Below are positions 5,583 through 23,241 of a stretch of DNA of 24,160 nucleotides, piece by piece (the first letter of the stretch is position 1; each line of letters starts with the position of its first letter). Location of the stretch: IMG/VR virus record IMGVR_UViG_3300009506_000186, positions 1 through 24,160 of that record; one strand, written 5' to 3'. The stretch comes from a virus. Made by a program: the position numbers and the translations under genes. The notes below the pieces were generated by a model. The model did no database searches. It was not told where the DNA came from and saw only the letters and a program-made list of their open reading frames with translations.

Positions 5583-7132
5583 TATTCAATCTGCTTCTCA
5601 AGATTCTCTTGTTGCTCTTGTAAGAACTTCATTCTCTCAGCCATCGGCACTTGATTGGCTTGACCCAATTCGATACCCTTCATTCGGATTTCATTTCGAG
5701 TTGGATATTTTTTTAATTGAAGTTGATGTTTAATCCATTCGTCCAGCTCACCCTGCGCCCTTGCAATCGCAATTGTTTGCTGTGGTGTCTGCACTAAATT
5801 TTCAATCTTAGCGTAAGCACCTTGAATTTTCGGGAATATCATATTAACAATAGCAGCATACCCTTCGCGCTTGCCAGCTTCAATTTCACCTGTTAATTTT
5901 GTCTCAAGCTTGTTTATGTATTGCTCTTTGTCTTGATCTTCTAAATATGGTGTGATAATAATTTGTTTTTTAATTTCTTCCTGGGGCCACTCCTGAGTTA
6001 TCATTTGGTTTATTTTGACAATCGCTGCCGCCCGTTGAACAGGGTCAACCGGAGTTTTCTTATTGGCTGCATCTTTGACAGCAGTCGCCCAAGTTTTAAG
6101 TTCATCTCCTTTTAAGAACTGAGATTTACGTAATTGATTCATAACAGAGGCATAGTTACCATTTAAAAATGCCATGCCAATATTTCGTTCTTCATCGTCA
6201 TGGGCGGTTTTATTCGAGCCTGTTTGAGCATTATTATATTGTGTTTCGTAAGCGTCTAACCATTGGCGAACCTCAAACTTAATATCGGGTTCCATTTTAC
6301 TATGGGTTAAATCCTGACGCATTTTTGTAAAATCAGGTACACCGTTTGACTCATACTTAGTTTGAAGTTCTGATTGTATTCTATCAATAGCATATTGCTT
6401 TGATTTTGTTTTAATATCATTTTTTAAAGAAAGATATTGTTCTTCTCCCAAATCCATTTTCCACGCTTCTAAAGCCTTACCCGCCGCCTCTGGGTTTTGA
6501 TCGATTCTTTCTTGCATATTGGCATAAAGCATAGTGGACTTATATTTTTTCTTCAACGCCGTGATATCTTCCCCTGGATGCGCGGATTCCAACCATTGAT
6601 AGAGATCACCTATGGTTTCTGCCACTGCACCACTTTGAAATCCGGCTTGCCGAATATCCTTTTCAGCTTGAAAAACTCTACCGGCTTCAACTTCGGCTAA
6701 ATACCGCTTGCCTTCTTCGGCCTGATATCGTGCAAGTATATCAAGGTTCTGCTCTCTCTTTCGATCAAGCAATTCTTTTAAAGCTAATTGCTGCTCTCCA
6801 TTCTCAGAGCCTTCGTTTGTTTTCTCAAAAGATTTATTGAAAAATTCGTCATATTGTTTATCAAGGTTGTAGGCGTCTTTTCCTTTCTTGGCTAAAAGCT
6901 CACTTAACGCCTGTCTATCCTGGTCTCGCCATTGATTATATAAATCACCTACAACGGCAGCATCCCGCTGTTGCTGTAAAACTTGCGCTCTCGCTATCAG
7001 AACATTCCCAAGTTTTTCATATGCTCCGCCTATTTGCTGGGATGGTCTTAAATCTGCATAATCTGTCGGCAATCCTGCCGGTAAACTTTCTCTTTGTGTA
7101 TATCGTGGTACTTTCGGAGCTGTTAAAGGCAT
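5582..7132 (-). CDS. Internal virion protein, coiled-coil rich (T7 gp15-position)
   Basis: This 516-aa protein is predicted to be almost entirely helical. It is rich in Gln, Glu, Lys and Ala with long heptad-like stretches, for example residues about 60-170 and 400-516. The first 40 residues are Pro-rich and probably extended (MPLTAPKVPRYTQRESLPAG). No enzymatic motif is visible. Its size, helical content and place between the gp14-like and gp16-like genes fit the middle internal core protein of short-tailed phages, which forms part of the ejection tube through the periplasm. Both ends overlap the neighbours by 1 bp (TAATG), so translation is coupled and stoichiometric production is likely. 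The assignment rests on position and composition, not on a recognised sequence motif. Confidence 0.7.
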   Translation of the reverse strand: MPLTAPKVPRYTQRESLPAGLPTDYADLRPSQQIGGAYEKLGNVLIARAQVLQQQRDAAVVGDLYNQWRDQDRQALSELLAKKGKDAYNLDKQYDEFFNKSFEKTNEGSENGEQQLALKELLDRKREQNLDILARYQAEEGKRYLAEVEAGRVFQAEKDIRQAGFQSGAVAETIGDLYQWLESAHPGEDITALKKKYKSTMLYANMQERIDQNPEAAGKALEAWKMDLGEEQYLSLKNDIKTKSKQYAIDRIQSELQTKYESNGVPDFTKMRQDLTHSKMEPDIKFEVRQWLDAYETQYNNAQTGSNKTAHDDEERNIGMAFLNGNYASVMNQLRKSQFLKGDELKTWATAVKDAANKKTPVDPVQRAAAIVKINQMITQEWPQEEIKKQIIITPYLEDQDKEQYINKLETKLTGEIEAGKREGYAAIVNMIFPKIQGAYAKIENLVQTPQQTIAIARAQGELDEWIKHQLQLKKYPTRNEIRMKGIELGQANQVPMAERMKFLQEQQENLEKQIE

Positions 7133-12836: not shown

Positions 12837-13180
12837 TCGATCTTCTTGGGTCTTCCAATGGTTTTCTTTTCAGTCGGATTGGTAAGTTCATCTTTTAATT
12901 CAGCGATCTCCATATCTCTTAGCTTGCTCCACATCTGCTTTCTGTTCCATGTTTGAGGCACACGAAAATTGAACTTATCTTTTAAAATCCGTTTAATCTC
13001 AACATTCGGTCTAGGATCGGACCCGGCATCAACTGTGGTTTCTTCCGGGGTCTCTTCTCCCTCTTTCTTAAAGTACTTTCCAGGTGGGTCTTCCCCTTCG
13101 TATATTTCTCCAGGCTTCCACAGATTCTCTTTCCAATAGCACTCTTTCCAACAGATTGCTCTATACGGAAATTTTTTCAT
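12833..13180 (-). CDS. Small charged phage protein, function unknown
   Basis: This 115-aa protein has an N-terminal segment YRAICWKECYWKENLWKPGE with two Cys and several Trp/Tyr, an acidic Pro/Glu-rich linker (about 28-60), and a basic C-terminus ending in GRPKK, which resembles an AT-hook core. Openings of the type CWKECYW..LW.PGE..EG occur in small phage proteins encoded near head or tail genes, but I know no function. AAGGGGGAAAA precedes the ATG at 13180, which overlaps the glycosyltransferase stop (ATGA). Its own stop overlaps the fibre start in the same way. It may belong with the fibre, since the two are coupled, or be the last member of the accessory cassette. Confidence 0.7.
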   Translation of the reverse strand: MKKFPYRAICWKECYWKENLWKPGEIYEGEDPPGKYFKKEGEETPEETTVDAGSDPRPNVEIKRILKDKFNFRVPQTWNRKQMWSKLRDMEIAELKDELTNPTEKKTIGRPKKIE

Positions 13181-14244
13181 TTTTCCCCCTTCAGCTTTTG
13201 GTATAACTCGATATATTTTTTTACATATACAGCCCGATTAAAATTAGCAAAGGCGTATTCTTTAGTTGCTTGCCTTAAATTTTTTGTATTATCGTTAAGA
13301 TCGATCCAGCATTTTTCTATCTGTTCCGCTATTGAACTAAGATCAAAAGGCTTTGCATGGTAGGGCGTGTAATCCCCATTATAAGAAACAACCGGCACCC
13401 CTGCAGCCATCATTTCCATGTGTACCCTTGACATTATTCCTGAGTAGTTAGAATTAAACCCAATATCTGCACCCTTAATAAAAGGATCTACCGTATTGCT
13501 TCGCATCTGAAAATTTTCAATGCAATTAAGCAAAAGATGCATTCTTTTAGACCGGCAAAGAATATTCCTAAAAAATTCTATGTCTATTACCGGCAGCGCA
13601 AAAACATTTAGTTTAGCCGTAGGTATTTTTGCTATAATCTTTGGCATGGAAAAGATTATATGCAGTGGTAGCTTTTCTATCCTGGGATAGTCGCAACTTA
13701 TAATCGCCGGCCTATTCTGATATTTCCATGCAAAGCCGTTCTCGTATCTTTCAAGGTCAATCGAGTTAGGTATATAGACAAGCCTGCTGTTTTCATCGAA
13801 TAGAACAGAAATATCGTATTCATGCTGATTTAAAACCACACAAGCATCATAATCCCAGATAGCGTTTATATGCGTTACTGTAAATGCTGGCTCCTGAATA
13901 TTTTTTATCATAAAAGCAAATTCTTTTAAGAGCATGTTTTCAACCGGCCCATGCATGATTGAAACAAGAATGTGCTTTTTTCTATTTTCTTCTTTCTTGA
14001 TATATTCAAAAAGTGGGGGGGGTAGCCCGGAATGGATAACCCAAATATCAGCATCATAGGCTTTATTCCAAAGTGAAGAAGTCAACCAATCATCAGTGAT
14101 ATCATGGTTCTTTGGATTTACGGCGTCTATTAGATTAGAATCCAATCCCTCCCGGCGCTCGTACTTAATCTGGTCTTTAGTCGATTCATACATGCCAGAC
14201 TTGCCGGGAGCCATAGGAGTAAAATGTATTACCCGCATTGGCAC
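13177..14244 (-). CDS. GT4-like glycosyltransferase
   Basis: This 355-aa protein has a GT-B layout. The N-terminal half begins MRVIHFTPMAPGKSGMYEST, where the GKSGMY loop replaces the usual glycine-rich GG-x-x loop. Then come SIMHGPVEN and VVLNQHEYD. VYIPNSIDLERYE (about 156-168) is the typical hinge between domains. The C-terminal half has SGIMSRVHMEMMAAGVPVVS (about 268-287), which is the GT4 nucleotide-sugar motif with E277 in the expected E-x-x-A-x-G-x-P-V-V context. It likely transfers a sugar from a nucleotide donor, either to a virion protein or to a host surface glycan. The longest frame starts at GTG 14244; the ATG two codons later (14238) gives the more normal start MRVIHF, and neither has a strong SD. 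It overlaps the methyltransferase gene by up to 16 bp. The DNA is visibly AT-rich compared with the head genes. Confidence 0.85.
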   Translation of the reverse strand: MPMRVIHFTPMAPGKSGMYESTKDQIKYERREGLDSNLIDAVNPKNHDITDDWLTSSLWNKAYDADIWVIHSGLPPPLFEYIKKEENRKKHILVSIMHGPVENMLLKEFAFMIKNIQEPAFTVTHINAIWDYDACVVLNQHEYDISVLFDENSRLVYIPNSIDLERYENGFAWKYQNRPAIISCDYPRIEKLPLHIIFSMPKIIAKIPTAKLNVFALPVIDIEFFRNILCRSKRMHLLLNCIENFQMRSNTVDPFIKGADIGFNSNYSGIMSRVHMEMMAAGVPVVSYNGDYTPYHAKPFDLSSIAEQIEKCWIDLNDNTKNLRQATKEYAFANFNRAVYVKKYIELYQKLKGEK

Positions 14245-14783
14245 ATGCCTATGATTGGGTTATCATAATTAGATTCAATCGGCATCATGTTAAAATCAAG
14301 CAAATCAACTATTGGAAAAATTTTATTCAACAAATCTCTTAATTCTTGCGGTCTATATTCTCTGATATGATATTCGCTTTTGCGGTAACGGCTTAACTTA
14401 TTGGGGGTTGATAAAAATAATGTCCCTGTATCTTTTAAAACATTCTTGCACTTTTCAATCATACCGCGATCATCCCTGATATGTTCGATAACATCTATCA
14501 TCGTGATAAAGTCAAATTTGTTCCCGATTGTTATTATGTCATCGATAGACGAATTAAAAAATTTAATCTTATGATTGTTAAAACATCTTTGTGCAAACTT
14601 TATGGCGTTTAAATCCAAATCGATTCCGGTTATATGAATAGCACTTCTTGTAAATAAATGAGTCCCAAAGCCAGTTCCGCAACCAACATCTAAAACACTC
14701 CCGCTTATTACCTCAGATATCTTTTCATAGATATCAAATTGTGGCGACAACATATATTGAAGGCGGTTCCAAAGTCCGTACAT
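14229..14783 (-). CDS. Class I SAM-dependent methyltransferase
   Basis: This 184-aa protein has the standard Rossmann methyltransferase motifs. Motif I is VLDVGCGTGFGTHLF (about 30-44). The acidic residue that binds the SAM ribose is in GIDLD (about 53-57). FDFITMIDVIEHI (about 90-102) is the post-II/IV segment typical of the Methyltransf_11/23 group, and TLFLSTPNK (about 121-129) follows. Members of this group methylate small molecules, sugars or proteins; DNA-methylase catalytic motifs such as NPPY or PC are absent. It starts in the stop of the previous gene (TAATG at 14785-14781) and overlaps the glycosyltransferase, so the two are made together. A shared role in building or capping a modified glycan is a reasonable inference. 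The protein is short for the family, and its C-terminal cap ends GMCQCG. Confidence 0.87.
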   Translation of the reverse strand: MYGLWNRLQYMLSPQFDIYEKISEVISGSVLDVGCGTGFGTHLFTRSAIHITGIDLDLNAIKFAQRCFNNHKIKFFNSSIDDIITIGNKFDFITMIDVIEHIRDDRGMIEKCKNVLKDTGTLFLSTPNKLSRYRKSEYHIREYRPQELRDLLNKIFPIVDLLDFNMMPIESNYDNPIIGMCQCG

Positions 14784-17993: not shown

Positions 17994-18012
17994 ACTTTCT
18001 CCCTTCGGTGAC

Positions 18013-18067
18013 AAAAAAAGGGCAGTGTAGCTGGATTTCTCCAGGTGTGGCCCACACTGCCCCTTTT
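18013..18067 (-). terminator. Terminator-like branched hairpin in the scaffold leader
   Basis: On the minus strand AAAAGGGGCAGTGT (18067-18054) pairs with ACACTGCCCTTTT (18028 downwards) through about 14 bp with one G-U pair, and the transcript continues in a run of seven Us. Inside it CTGGA-GAAA-TCCAG (18044-18031) forms its own GNRA-capped stem. GTGTGG/CCACAC (18057-18045) offers a competing pairing that uses part of the outer stem. It has the form of an intrinsic terminator, yet it lies only about 20 bp before the scaffold start, so it is probably leaky or regulated. Confidence 0.7.
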
Positions 18068-18078
18068 AAGTCTTATTA

Positions 18079-18095
18079 TCGGTGGATCAGACCGA
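18079..18095 (-). other. Small hairpin in the scaffold leader
   Basis: TCGGT and ACCGA form a 5-bp stem with a 7-nt loop, about 12 bp before the terminator-like structure. AT-rich sequence (18096-18136) precedes it on the transcript. A GUCGG/CUGAC pairing with that AT-rich part is an alternative. The whole gap of about 140 bp between the Bbp19-like gene and scaffold holds no recognisable ORF. Confidence 0.4.
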
Positions 18096-18136
18096 CAAAT
18101 TTTTTAAATTTTAGTCAGATTTTTTCTAAATCGTTC

Positions 18137-18454
18137 CTATTTTTCTGGTTTTAGCTTCTGAAAATCCAAAACATCATCTAAATTATTGCCAAGGTTGAGC
18201 ATAGTCATAATATATAGACCAATATGCCTTGAACCTTCATTGAAATACGTCCACGAGTTACCTGTCATGGAAAGATGAAAAACCCGGCACATTGATAAGA
18301 TATCCCACAAAACCTGACGACCATCAGGCGATTTCAACATAGTTCTATATGAATTTAGAAGCTCCTGATTCTTGGCACGGATCTCAATGTCTTTTTTCTG
18401 GCTTTCTATGTAATCTTCTAAATAAAGACCTTCGGTTAATTCTTTAAGATCCAT
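18137..18454 (-). CDS. Bbp19-like small head-module protein
   Basis: This 105-aa helical protein has the block SPDGRQVLWDILSMCRVFHL followed by an aromatic NSWTYFNEGSRHIGLYIMTM segment (about 43-92). The pattern GR..L..IL..C.VF...........F.EG.R..GL.I...L is that of the Bbp19 family, found between portal and scaffold/capsid genes in BPP-1-like phages. The function of that family is not established. Here it sits in the same place. The ATG at 18454 overlaps the methyltransferase stop by 11 bp. The N-terminal 40 residues are charged (SQKKDIEIRAKNQELL). It is the last gene before the structured leader and terminator-like hairpin. Confidence 0.75.
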   Translation of the reverse strand: MDLKELTEGLYLEDYIESQKKDIEIRAKNQELLNSYRTMLKSPDGRQVLWDILSMCRVFHLSMTGNSWTYFNEGSRHIGLYIMTMLNLGNNLDDVLDFQKLKPEK

Positions 18455-19079
18455 TCACCCACATCCAGGAATCGTGTATATCTTCCGGTTTTCCGAATAC
18501 AAACCACGGCCTTATATCATATGCGCTTGTATAGGCGTCCACAGCTTCTTTAACTTGGCATATATTCGGCCTCGCGGTCATCTTGTTGTAATCGTGTCCG
18601 GCGATAATCCCACCAGGTTTTACTTTAGGACTCCATAAAACAATATCATTTATGACCATTTCAAGCCGATGGTCAGCATCAATGTAAACAAAATCTAAAG
18701 AAGTGTCTTTAAAATCTTTCACGGCTTCTTTGCTTGATTTTGGTAAAAGACAAACATTAGAATATTCTTTAAATCTTTTTGCTGTAAATCTAAAAGCCTC
18801 ATTAAAAACTTCATCATCAGCATCTACTATCTGACCCATAATCTTTACTTTTGTACCACCGGGATAGGCTTGCCAAGAATCAATTAAGTAAAGCTCCAAA
18901 TTGGGGTGTCTTGTTATCAGGGTTTCTGAATAGTCACCCTTCCACACCCCTATCTCAGCACCTTTATTAAATTCAAGTGTTTTAAGTAGCTTGGGAAGAT
19001 CGTTTCTACCAAAATCAACTATCCTGATAGGACTTTTAAATTCAAGAGGATAGTTTTGAAAAATGTGAGTTAGGGTCAT
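18444..19079 (-). CDS. Class I SAM methyltransferase (Methyltransf_24-like)
   Basis: This 211-aa protein carries GAEIGVWKGDYSETL (about 40-54) as motif I, LYLIDSW (about 63-69) with the SAM-binding Asp, LDFVYIDADHRLEMVINDI (about 128-146) and KPGGIIAGHDY (about 154-164). These are hallmarks of the Methyltransf_24 group, in which the D-A-D/G-H-D residues often contribute to a metal-assisted or O-methyl transfer. The substrate is unknown. Its placement between portal and the Bbp19-like protein, with a 4-bp ATGA overlap to the portal, is unusual for an enzyme. It may modify a virion component or be a hitchhiking gene. A segment KIMGQIVDADDEVFNEAFRF (about 79-98) is probably the substrate lid. 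Confidence 0.85.
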   Translation of the reverse strand: MTLTHIFQNYPLEFKSPIRIVDFGRNDLPKLLKTLEFNKGAEIGVWKGDYSETLITRHPNLELYLIDSWQAYPGGTKVKIMGQIVDADDEVFNEAFRFTAKRFKEYSNVCLLPKSSKEAVKDFKDTSLDFVYIDADHRLEMVINDIVLWSPKVKPGGIIAGHDYNKMTARPNICQVKEAVDAYTSAYDIRPWFVFGKPEDIHDSWMWVNGS

Positions 19080-21050: not shown

Positions 21051-21395
21051 TTATAACTCCTGTGTGATCGTGATATGCTCAATCACGTTTTTAAATCCAA
21101 AATATTTCACAAATTTTATAAACTTCTTATTCTCATCCGAGAAACCTATCTTGGTCACTCCGACAGTTTTAACATTCAACCGCTTCAAAGCATCCTTAAT
21201 AATGTTCCAATCACTTAAAAGATGCTTTAAAATAGTCTTTGACCACCTGAACACTTGAAGATGGACTATCGCATTTTCGGGCATCCTTAAATCAACCGCC
21301 AGATAACCGTAAATGCCATCCTCGTCAAAACCCTCAAAAAAGATGCTGCCGTGTTCCTTGGAAAATACAGGTGTTTTCTCTACATTTCTAATCAT
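21051..21395 (-). CDS. GNAT-fold-like small phage protein (T7 gp13-type position shifted)
   Basis: This 114-aa protein has YGYLAVDLRMPENAIVHLQV, a helix LKHLLSDWNIIKDALKRLNV, VGVTKIGFSDENKKFIKF and VKYFGFKNV. The last part resembles the end of N-acetyltransferase-fold proteins (K-x-x-K-F-x-K-x-F-GF). Related phage proteins include the small acetyltransferase-like internal virion proteins. A clear acetyl-CoA pyrophosphate loop (Q/R-x-x-G-x-G/A) is absent, so it may be structural rather than catalytic. It starts at ATG 21395 with only a weak AAGA upstream, just after the three-hairpin RNA. That makes RNA-controlled translation plausible. Confidence 0.7.
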   Translation of the reverse strand: MIRNVEKTPVFSKEHGSIFFEGFDEDGIYGYLAVDLRMPENAIVHLQVFRWSKTILKHLLSDWNIIKDALKRLNVKTVGVTKIGFSDENKKFIKFVKYFGFKNVIEHITITQEL

Positions 21396-21406
21396 AATCT
21401 TGGCTA

Positions 21407-21496
21407 GGCCGGAGGCGAACCCCCGGCCCGCCGAAAGGAGGTCAAAATATCCGACCGGGAAAGGTTAGTCGGATTCCCTGCAACCTCCGTTGAGGG
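21407..21496 (-). ncRNA. Compact three-hairpin RNA element with possible pseudoknot
   Basis: Between the small interrupted ORF (stop at 21500-21498) and the GNAT-like gene the transcript can fold into three helices. H1 (21496-21476) is CCCTCAAC-GGAG-GTTG-c-AGGG, 8 bp with one bulged C. H2 (21474-21449) is ATCCGAC/GTCGGAT, a perfect 7-bp stem with a 12-nt loop. H3 (21428-21407) is GGCCGGGGG-TTCG-CCTCCGGCC, 9 bp with one G-U pair. The linker between H2 and H3 contains ACCTCCTTTC, which can pair with the GGAG loop of H1 and is the same as the 16S rRNA 3' tail. No convincing ORF crosses it. It may be a cis-regulatory leader, a processing site or an unrecognised RNA motif. Confidence 0.5.
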
Positions 21497-21497
21497 A

Positions 21498-21677
21498 CTA
21501 TTTTTCTTTCTTCCCTTTGCCTTTATGCGTCTTGCTATACATATATCCCCTGTAAGCACGCTCGGCCTTTTCCTTTGAGTCATACATGCAATCGCCATGT
21601 CCTATGGCGTATTTGCCGTTTCCTCAGTTTCTTACCGGCATAATAGATAATTCCAATTCTCCAATATATTTTTTCAT
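21498..21677 (-). pseudogene. Small Cys-type ORF interrupted by in-frame TGA (mutation or recoding)
   Basis: From ATG 21677, preceded by GGGAAAGGGAA, the frame reads MKKYIGELELSIMPVRN, then TGA at 21626-21624. It continues in the same frame as GNGKYAIGHGDCMYDSKEKA and ERAYRGYMYSKTHKGKGKKEK to TAG at 21500. The second part, and MPVR before the TGA, read like a family of small phage proteins of the form MPVRKCxNGKxxIGxGxCxYxSKxxAERAY. The TGA stands where the first Cys is expected, 11 residues before the remaining Cys. TGA serves as a normal stop elsewhere here. Explanations are a point mutation, a sequencing error, or read-through, including selenocysteine. A hairpin fitting bacterial SECIS rules lies 14 nt downstream. 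The family comparison is from memory. Confidence 0.55.
21593..21609 (-). promoter_or_regulatory. SECIS-compatible hairpin after the in-frame TGA
   Basis: On the transcript CGCCAT-AGGAC-ATGGCG is a perfect 6-bp stem with a 5-nt loop. It begins 15 nt after the TGA at 21626-21624, and the loop Gs lie at +22 and +23. A G in the first two loop positions at this distance meets the loose published consensus for bacterial selenocysteine insertion elements. A 6-bp stem arises easily by chance, so this is suggestive only. Confidence 0.3.
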
Positions 21678-21687
21678 TTCCCTTTCC

Positions 21688-23241
21688 CTATTGCCCGTAT
21701 GCTAAAACGTCATAGTCTATTTTTGCGGTTGCTAAAGTTTCCCGCATCTGGGGAGTCGTCATAACCGGGCCACCAAATGTTAATGCCAAAGAATCAGCCT
21801 TATTCGGGGACCGGCCCAAGTTCTGTTTGACTTCCCTTTTATCCTGTAATTGATACTGGTCTTTATTGTTTAACGCACATTCGTGAATACAAAGCTCTTC
21901 TTTGAGTTCAGGATCTTTCGGCAAACCTCCGCCTTTTTCCATCCAATCTTTAACCAGACAGTACATTTCCGTCCTAAGATTGTAATAATTCTGCGGCTCA
22001 TAGCTTCTATTTCCTCCCCTTACAGGGTAAAGAAGATGTCCGTATCCTCGTTGTCGTAATATATAACAGACCGTGTTTCCGGCTCCAGACTCATCAATAA
22101 ATATGGCGTCCGGCTTCCAATCTTCGATTTCTCGTATAACGATTTCAGCAAGTCGCTCAGGTCTTGTGCTGAAAGTCTTGAAGGGCTGAACGCCCAAACC
22201 CTGCCTTCGGCAGATACTAGCCACATCAGAACCACCCTCCGATGGATCGATCCCCATTATTTTAGGTTCAGTATAAAAATCTCTTTCCGAGATACTTCGC
22301 TGTGAGCTTTCCTCAAACAGATACGGGCTTATCAGAATAAGCGTAGACCCCCTCGGAGGCTTTCCTCTGACCCTGACCCTGCAAAAGTCGGAATCTATGC
22401 CGTATCGCGCAATCTGTCCCTTTATTTCTTCTTTCTTGGACATCTTGGCAAAACGACTATCAACCTCAAAACAAATCCATCTGCCGTCACCCCTCCTTAA
22501 CTCAACACAATGCGGATTGCCTATTAACATACCGTCTTTATCGGTTTCACCGTCAAATCCGTAAACGACCTTGAAGTCAGACTCAAAACAATTAAAAAAA
22601 TAGCCGGTATTCAAGGTGGGATTGCCAAGCATGACCCAGACACAGTTTTCAGTCGTCATGGACCCTTCGGCTACTTCCATGATCTTGTCATGGATTGCTG
22701 AAGCCTCATCCATCAACAATAAGACAGATCGGTCATGCGTCCCCGCAAAGGCCTCCGACCTATCTTTGTTCCAAGGAATCGCGTTGGCCCTCCACGTAAA
22801 CTCCTTTGTCGGGTCCATTGAATAGTAATGAGCAGTTGCCGTGTGCTTGTACCAATCGGAATTTCTCGAAACCCCCGTCCACTTAGCGAGTTCCCGCCAT
22901 GTTTTTGTCTCTAACTGAGGCTTTGTATTCGCCGTTACCGTTACTTGGGGGTCAACCCTCGTACTCATAAAATGATCCGTTACCCAAGAAGACAAGGCAC
23001 CCTTGCCAATACCATGCCCAGACCTTATAGCAATACGGACAGAATCTTGCTTCTCACCAGAAAGAACCTTGTTATACTCCTTCTCTAATTTTAAAAGAAC
23101 CTCCACCTGCCAATAATCCGGCCCGTCAGAATCTACTAAAAACGTCCCCTTGGACTTCCAAGGATATTGAAACAATACAAACTCTAAAGGCTTGTAAATG
23201 AGCTGAGAATATATCTTAACTAACTTAGAAACGTCATCCAT
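21688..23241 (-). CDS. terL: Terminase large subunit (packaging ATPase/nuclease)
   Basis: This 517-aa protein pumps DNA into the procapsid and cuts it. ATPase motifs: Walker A SGHGIGKG (74-81), VTANTKPQLETKTWRELAKW (101-120), Walker B VLLLMDEAS (173-181) with D178/E179, and the coupling motif LGNPT (205-209). The nuclease domain has GIDPSEGGSD (330-339, D332), IFIDESGAG (380-388, D383) and NKADSLALTF (480-489, D483), the usual acidic triad. The Walker A has Gly81 where Thr or Ser is normal. The start ATG overlaps the previous stop by 8 bp with a weak upstream SD. The length is typical for this family. It acts with the TerS-like protein and the portal. Confidence 0.95.
   Translation of the reverse strand: MDDVSKLVKIYSQLIYKPLEFVLFQYPWKSKGTFLVDSDGPDYWQVEVLLKLEKEYNKVLSGEKQDSVRIAIRSGHGIGKGALSSWVTDHFMSTRVDPQVTVTANTKPQLETKTWRELAKWTGVSRNSDWYKHTATAHYYSMDPTKEFTWRANAIPWNKDRSEAFAGTHDRSVLLLMDEASAIHDKIMEVAEGSMTTENCVWVMLGNPTLNTGYFFNCFESDFKVVYGFDGETDKDGMLIGNPHCVELRRGDGRWICFEVDSRFAKMSKKEEIKGQIARYGIDSDFCRVRVRGKPPRGSTLILISPYLFEESSQRSISERDFYTEPKIMGIDPSEGGSDVASICRRQGLGVQPFKTFSTRPERLAEIVIREIEDWKPDAIFIDESGAGNTVCYILRQRGYGHLLYPVRGGNRSYEPQNYYNLRTEMYCLVKDWMEKGGGLPKDPELKEELCIHECALNNKDQYQLQDKREVKQNLGRSPNKADSLALTFGGPVMTTPQMRETLATAKIDYDVLAYGQ

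Follow-up and report, generated by a model that had tools for sequence, protein, structure and literature searches.

A gap downstream of the terminase gene terL holds a real, conserved, sense-strand structured RNA whose fold rests on comparative evidence: covarying helices in four phages. It is a structured motif absent from Rfam and located at a fixed junction between packaging and head genes. The window, i.e., the whole stretch of DNA analysed, comprises all 24,160 bases of an IMG/VR record, and since this record is classed as linear, it is possibly a fragment. It contains a phage structural block with its main genes on the minus strand, among them a portal gene (PF12236, E 3e-131) and a GP7-type capsid gene. 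Among annotated phages, the nearest are podoviruses of the epsilon15-like kind and others similar to them (TerL identity ~35%), together with the TPA genome vir555 (42%). Upstream of the element lies terL (21688..23241, minus strand; PHROG terminase large subunit), which is its neighbour in all members. Downstream, a gene of 114 aa (21051..21395, minus strand) has no Pfam or PHROG family match. Its originally proposed GNAT-like character agrees with the predicted fold, for which acetyltransferases are the best PDB matches (E 2e-5, mean pLDDT 71, moderate confidence), and it does lack a Shine-Dalgarno sequence, as had been suspected.

Three consecutive hairpins are present where they had been claimed, on the transcribed (minus) strand at 21497-21407, within an intergenic gap of exactly 102 nt between the stop codon at 21500-21498 and the next ATG at 21395. 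H1 (21475..21497) has 9 bp with one bulged C and a GGAG loop, its arms being UCCCUCAAC and GUUG(C)AGGGA. H2 (21449..21474) pairs AUCCGAC with GUCGGAU and adds a closing U-G pair, giving 8 bp around the loop AACCUUUCCC. The single-stranded linker CCUCCUUUC (21433..21441, with CCUCC at 21441-21437) leads to H3 (21407..21428; 9 bp, GGCCGGGGG-UUCG-CCUCCGGCC), which is lengthened by an outer GGC/GCC pairing of 21432-21430 with 21404-21402. The minimum free energy (MFE) of the element is -48.9 kcal/mol, with z of about -3.1 to -3.5 against dinucleotide shuffles, of which 1 in 200 was as good. In the MFE structure, GGAGGU pairs with ACCUCC around H2 and H1 is broken; the form with H1, H2 and H3 is 0.7 kcal/mol higher. 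The structure had also been described as much denser than elsewhere in the window. This is true of raw stability, as no other 100-nt stretch is more stable, but once G+C is corrected for, an intrinsic terminator at 18001-18100 comes first and the element second.

Three other IMG/VR phages, whose TerL proteins are 44-76% identical to that of the window, share this layout between their terminase and portal genes. In L002 (76%, TerL search), terL is followed directly by a gap with the same parts, and TerL alignments placed these parts at the same junction in L010 (47%) and in L011/L012 (44%, identical elements). The gaps of the four members measure 102, 154, 167 and 139 nt, the second being that of L002. 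Throughout, the H1 loop is purine-rich (GGAG in the window, otherwise AAGGGG, GGGG and UCCAAGGAG), the H2 loop carries a UUCCC/UCCCC tract, the linker CCUCCUUU is invariant, and a GC-rich H3 precedes the next start codon. Between H1 and H2, one additional hairpin is present in L002, L010 and L011. The constant neighbours across members are terL and the portal block. As the GNAT gene and the small gene upstream of the element come and go, both being absent from the junction in L002, the element is tied to the terL/portal junction rather than to either gene. As to the original suggestion that the structure may govern translation of the GNAT-like gene, the next gene is without a Shine-Dalgarno sequence in three of the four members; in L002, which lacks a GNAT gene at this place, the gene that follows has one (AAAGGA).

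A descriptor scan of the collected loci returned these four members and no further convincing case. Two additional scans with TerL and one with portal, run on viral contigs, likewise yielded only four distinct members, other relatives having no such structured gap. Neither the GNAT protein scan nor a single-protein portal scan produced relatives, TerL and portal alignments in genome contigs gave none, and no DNA similarity was detected in annotated phages. Pseudomonas phages AF and HU1, which share the gene order, have overlapping genes and no element, so its job is not a general one. Besides L002, a two-motif pattern scan had returned L004, which was rejected because its motif is a Shine-Dalgarno sequence and gene start on the opposite strand. 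In L003, the gap after terL (6264-6369) holds a GGAATCCGGAC-like unit repeated in tandem, which has no relation to the element.

Covariation was assessed in the four distinct members, with helix registers set by hand after the sequences had been seen; pair counts were made on these hand-set helices because the MAFFT alignment misaligned the linker of L011. Two-sided changes affect 6 of the 7 compared pairs in H1, 8 of 8 in H2 and 5 of 9 in H3, and the comparison of H2 pairs includes one G-G mismatch, in L010. Arms from the same phage paired at 100, 97 and 100%, compared with 55, 45 and 66% for arms swapped between phages. On the sense strand, all four members fold better than their shuffles (z of -3.5, -5.7, -5.75 and -4.6). 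The antisense fold is weaker in every member, and 21 of the 173 sense-strand pairs are G-U; on these two grounds an antisense element was rejected as less likely. The changes on both sides of all three helices, together with the missing Rfam match described below, bear out the original prediction of a structured RNA outside known families. Neither of the two outcomes named beforehand as refuting it, absence of covariation in relatives and conserved coding through the region, was observed.

That prediction had also included a pseudoknot between the H1 loop and the linker. Its 5′ strand would be GGAGGU at 21483..21488 (minus strand) and its partner ACCUCC at 21442-21437. A loop-linker helix of 6-9 pairs can form in each of the four members and is uncommon in their shuffles (0.079, 0.0014, 0.0016 and 0.026). 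The proposed pairing of linker and H1 loop is thus possible in every member. When loops and linkers were exchanged between members, however, own partners were not preferred, the combination of own loop and own linker ranking 8th of 24. The 3′ core of the pseudoknot is invariant, and as the core letters hardly vary, covariation does not test this pairing. It is plausible that the linker reaches back to the purine-rich loop of H1 and forms a long-range pseudoknot with it. The sequence CCUCCUUU also corresponds to the anti-Shine-Dalgarno tail of 16S rRNA.

Known classes of RNA were compared with the element. A search of the whole window against Rfam 15 returned no match at the gathering cut-off; the best sub-threshold match scored 15.6 bits where the cut-off was 39, and nothing was found up to E=10 at the element in L002, L010 and L011. 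An intrinsic terminator, which would have a GC-rich stem with a U-tract directly behind it, was rejected, since H3 of the window is followed by UAGCCAAGAUUAUG without a U-tract and does not appear among the terminator scan results. Protein coding was rejected as well: the four gaps have no conserved reading frame, no alignable peptide and no shared start, even though one short frame happens to remain open across the linker in all four members. Like a bacterial SECIS, the element adjoins a gene with an in-frame UGA, but it lies 3′ of the stop codon, and two of the four members have no UGA gene (L010 has Cys, TGC; L002 has no small gene), so this reading was also rejected. T7-like phages carry intercistronic processing or stabilising hairpins, usually one long hairpin. 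The element resembles these in being intergenic, on the sense strand and between co-transcribed phage genes, but differs in its several hairpins with constant loop and linker motifs. The pRNA of phi29 is a structured phage RNA linked to packaging and has an Rfam model. Although the element is likewise a structured phage RNA tied to packaging, the Rfam searches gave no match to the phi29 pRNA fold, and more distant relatives of this kind of terminase have no such element next to them. In transcription control, a comparable RNA is HK022 putRNA, a cis-acting antiterminator of ~70 nt with two stem-loops, which binds RNA polymerase, suppresses termination at terminators 10 kb or more distant and is located in early operons near promoters (PMC9378689). 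Both are short phage RNAs of consecutive stem-loops in an operon with terminators downstream; the element, however, has three hairpins as well as a pyrimidine linker, and its place is between terL and the head genes.

We tentatively favour a cis-acting role in the late mRNA of a small podovirus-like clade (PF12236 portal) at the packaging/head boundary, a reading that is quite possible but falls short of probable. On the minus strand from 23208 to 19587 no sigma70-like candidate was listed, and the element is therefore probably internal to a longer transcript. Within it, the RNA would form H1, H2 and the GC-rich H3, in some members with the extra hairpin between H1 and H2; the CCUCCUUU linker would stay free of these helices and probably dock on the H1 loop. 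The element would mark the boundary between a packaging block (terL and an optional small gene) and a head block (an optional GNAT gene, a small gene and portal). Such a compact barrier would fix a point of RNA processing or protection and would separate translation of the two blocks. If the element does control late transcription or mRNA processing, it would offer a small, portable part for regulation and a case in which RNA-based control could be tested among podovirus-like phages.

Other roles were weighed against this boundary function. By analogy with putRNA, the RNA might bind elongating polymerase in cis and cause read-through of head-operon terminators. Strong terminator-like hairpins do lie downstream in the same operon, and putRNA is likewise a short RNA of stem-loops, with a long reach, but the element comes after terL and not at an early promoter, and the downstream terminators may serve to step expression down; we regard antitermination as unlikely. 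A translational switch for the next gene, in which exchange between H1 and the GGAGGU:ACCUCC helix alters ribosome access, would make use of the Shine-Dalgarno-like GGAGG in the H1 loop and the anti-Shine-Dalgarno CCUCC in the linker. The two forms differ by only 0.7 kcal/mol in the window and 1.2 in L010, the next gene mostly lacks a Shine-Dalgarno sequence, and the MFE structure of L002 pairs the linker with AAAGGA. Yet ~90 nt separate GGAGG from the start codon and no other start codon follows it closely, the members differ in their next gene, the linker-free form of L002 is 5.2 kcal/mol worse through Shine-Dalgarno pairing and not through H1 pairing, and the MFE structure of L011 has no nested GGAG:CUCC helix, all of which makes a switch improbable.

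The RNA could also be cut from the terL transcript to work in trans as an sRNA, or as part of the terminase motor in the manner of phi29 pRNA. It is compact, well folded and placed after terL in all members (directly so in L002), and its free CCUCCUUU could pair with Shine-Dalgarno sequences. As neither an Rfam match nor a promoter or terminator of its own was seen, and other TerL relatives lack it, this role is distinctly doubtful. We see an equally slim chance that the element regulates late phage transcription as an RNA that needs no protein, i.e., a new class of antiterminator, or that it is a working RNA linked to the terminase, in a clade without a known isolate. Least likely are ordinary intergenic hairpins, e.g., a terminator, without a specific role. 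For them speak the small number of members, other strong hairpins in the window and an AU-rich stretch after H3 in L011. However, the U-tract is missing after H3 in the window, L002 and L010, and the common layout, the constant loop and linker motifs and the many two-sided changes all oppose this explanation, which covariation brings close to refutation.

Outside the element, the small upstream gene (21498..21641, minus strand), which ends one base before H1, probably encodes a phage selenoprotein, judging from its sequence. Its translation begins MPVRN[UGA]GNGKYAIGHGDC (MPVRN-UGA-GNGKYAIGHGDCMYDSKEK), and the gene has an in-frame UGA (21626-21624) at a conserved Cys as well as an internal SECIS-like hairpin (21609-21593). 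About 30 viral relatives have Cys (TGC/TGT) at this codon, whereas TGA occurs in the window, L011/L012, L101/L102 and L111 (other TGA genes: L011 2663-2788, L101 3001, L111 3001); TAA, TAG or TGG occurred in none read. Other genes of the window use TGA as an ordinary stop. A strong Shine-Dalgarno sequence precedes the small-gene start in L101 and L111. Under the criterion for a bacterial SECIS, a stem-loop lies 16-37 nt after the in-frame UGA and inside the gene. In all four distinct TGA genes the hairpin loop begins 20 nt after the UGA and has a G within its first two positions, while such a hairpin at -6.5 kcal/mol or better occurs in 3 of 31 Cys genes (hypergeometric p ~0.0007, relatedness ignored). 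The hairpins of the TGA genes fit the bacterial SECIS model quoted in PMC13188914, which sets an energy limit of -7.5; that of the window is just short of this limit alone (-6.9) and reaches -12.7 with its lower stem. No paper on phage selenoproteins came up in text searches of the literature, a weak indication of novelty. In L127 3001, L132 3001 and L138 3001, the small Cys domain apparently forms a fusion with a longer protein that carries SFDYDGVLST / SFDFDDTLST and looks HAD-like by eye; the 70-aa piece from L127 has no Pfam match.

Elsewhere in the window, intrinsic-terminator-like hairpins with co-directed genes on both sides lie within the head operon at ~18016-18070 and 15820-15803 (minus strand); these may lower expression stepwise or be passed by the polymerase. 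According to Pfam, two methyltransferase-like genes and one weakly glycosyltransferase-like gene stand among the structural genes, at 18444-19079, 14229-14783 and 13177-14244 (minus strand).
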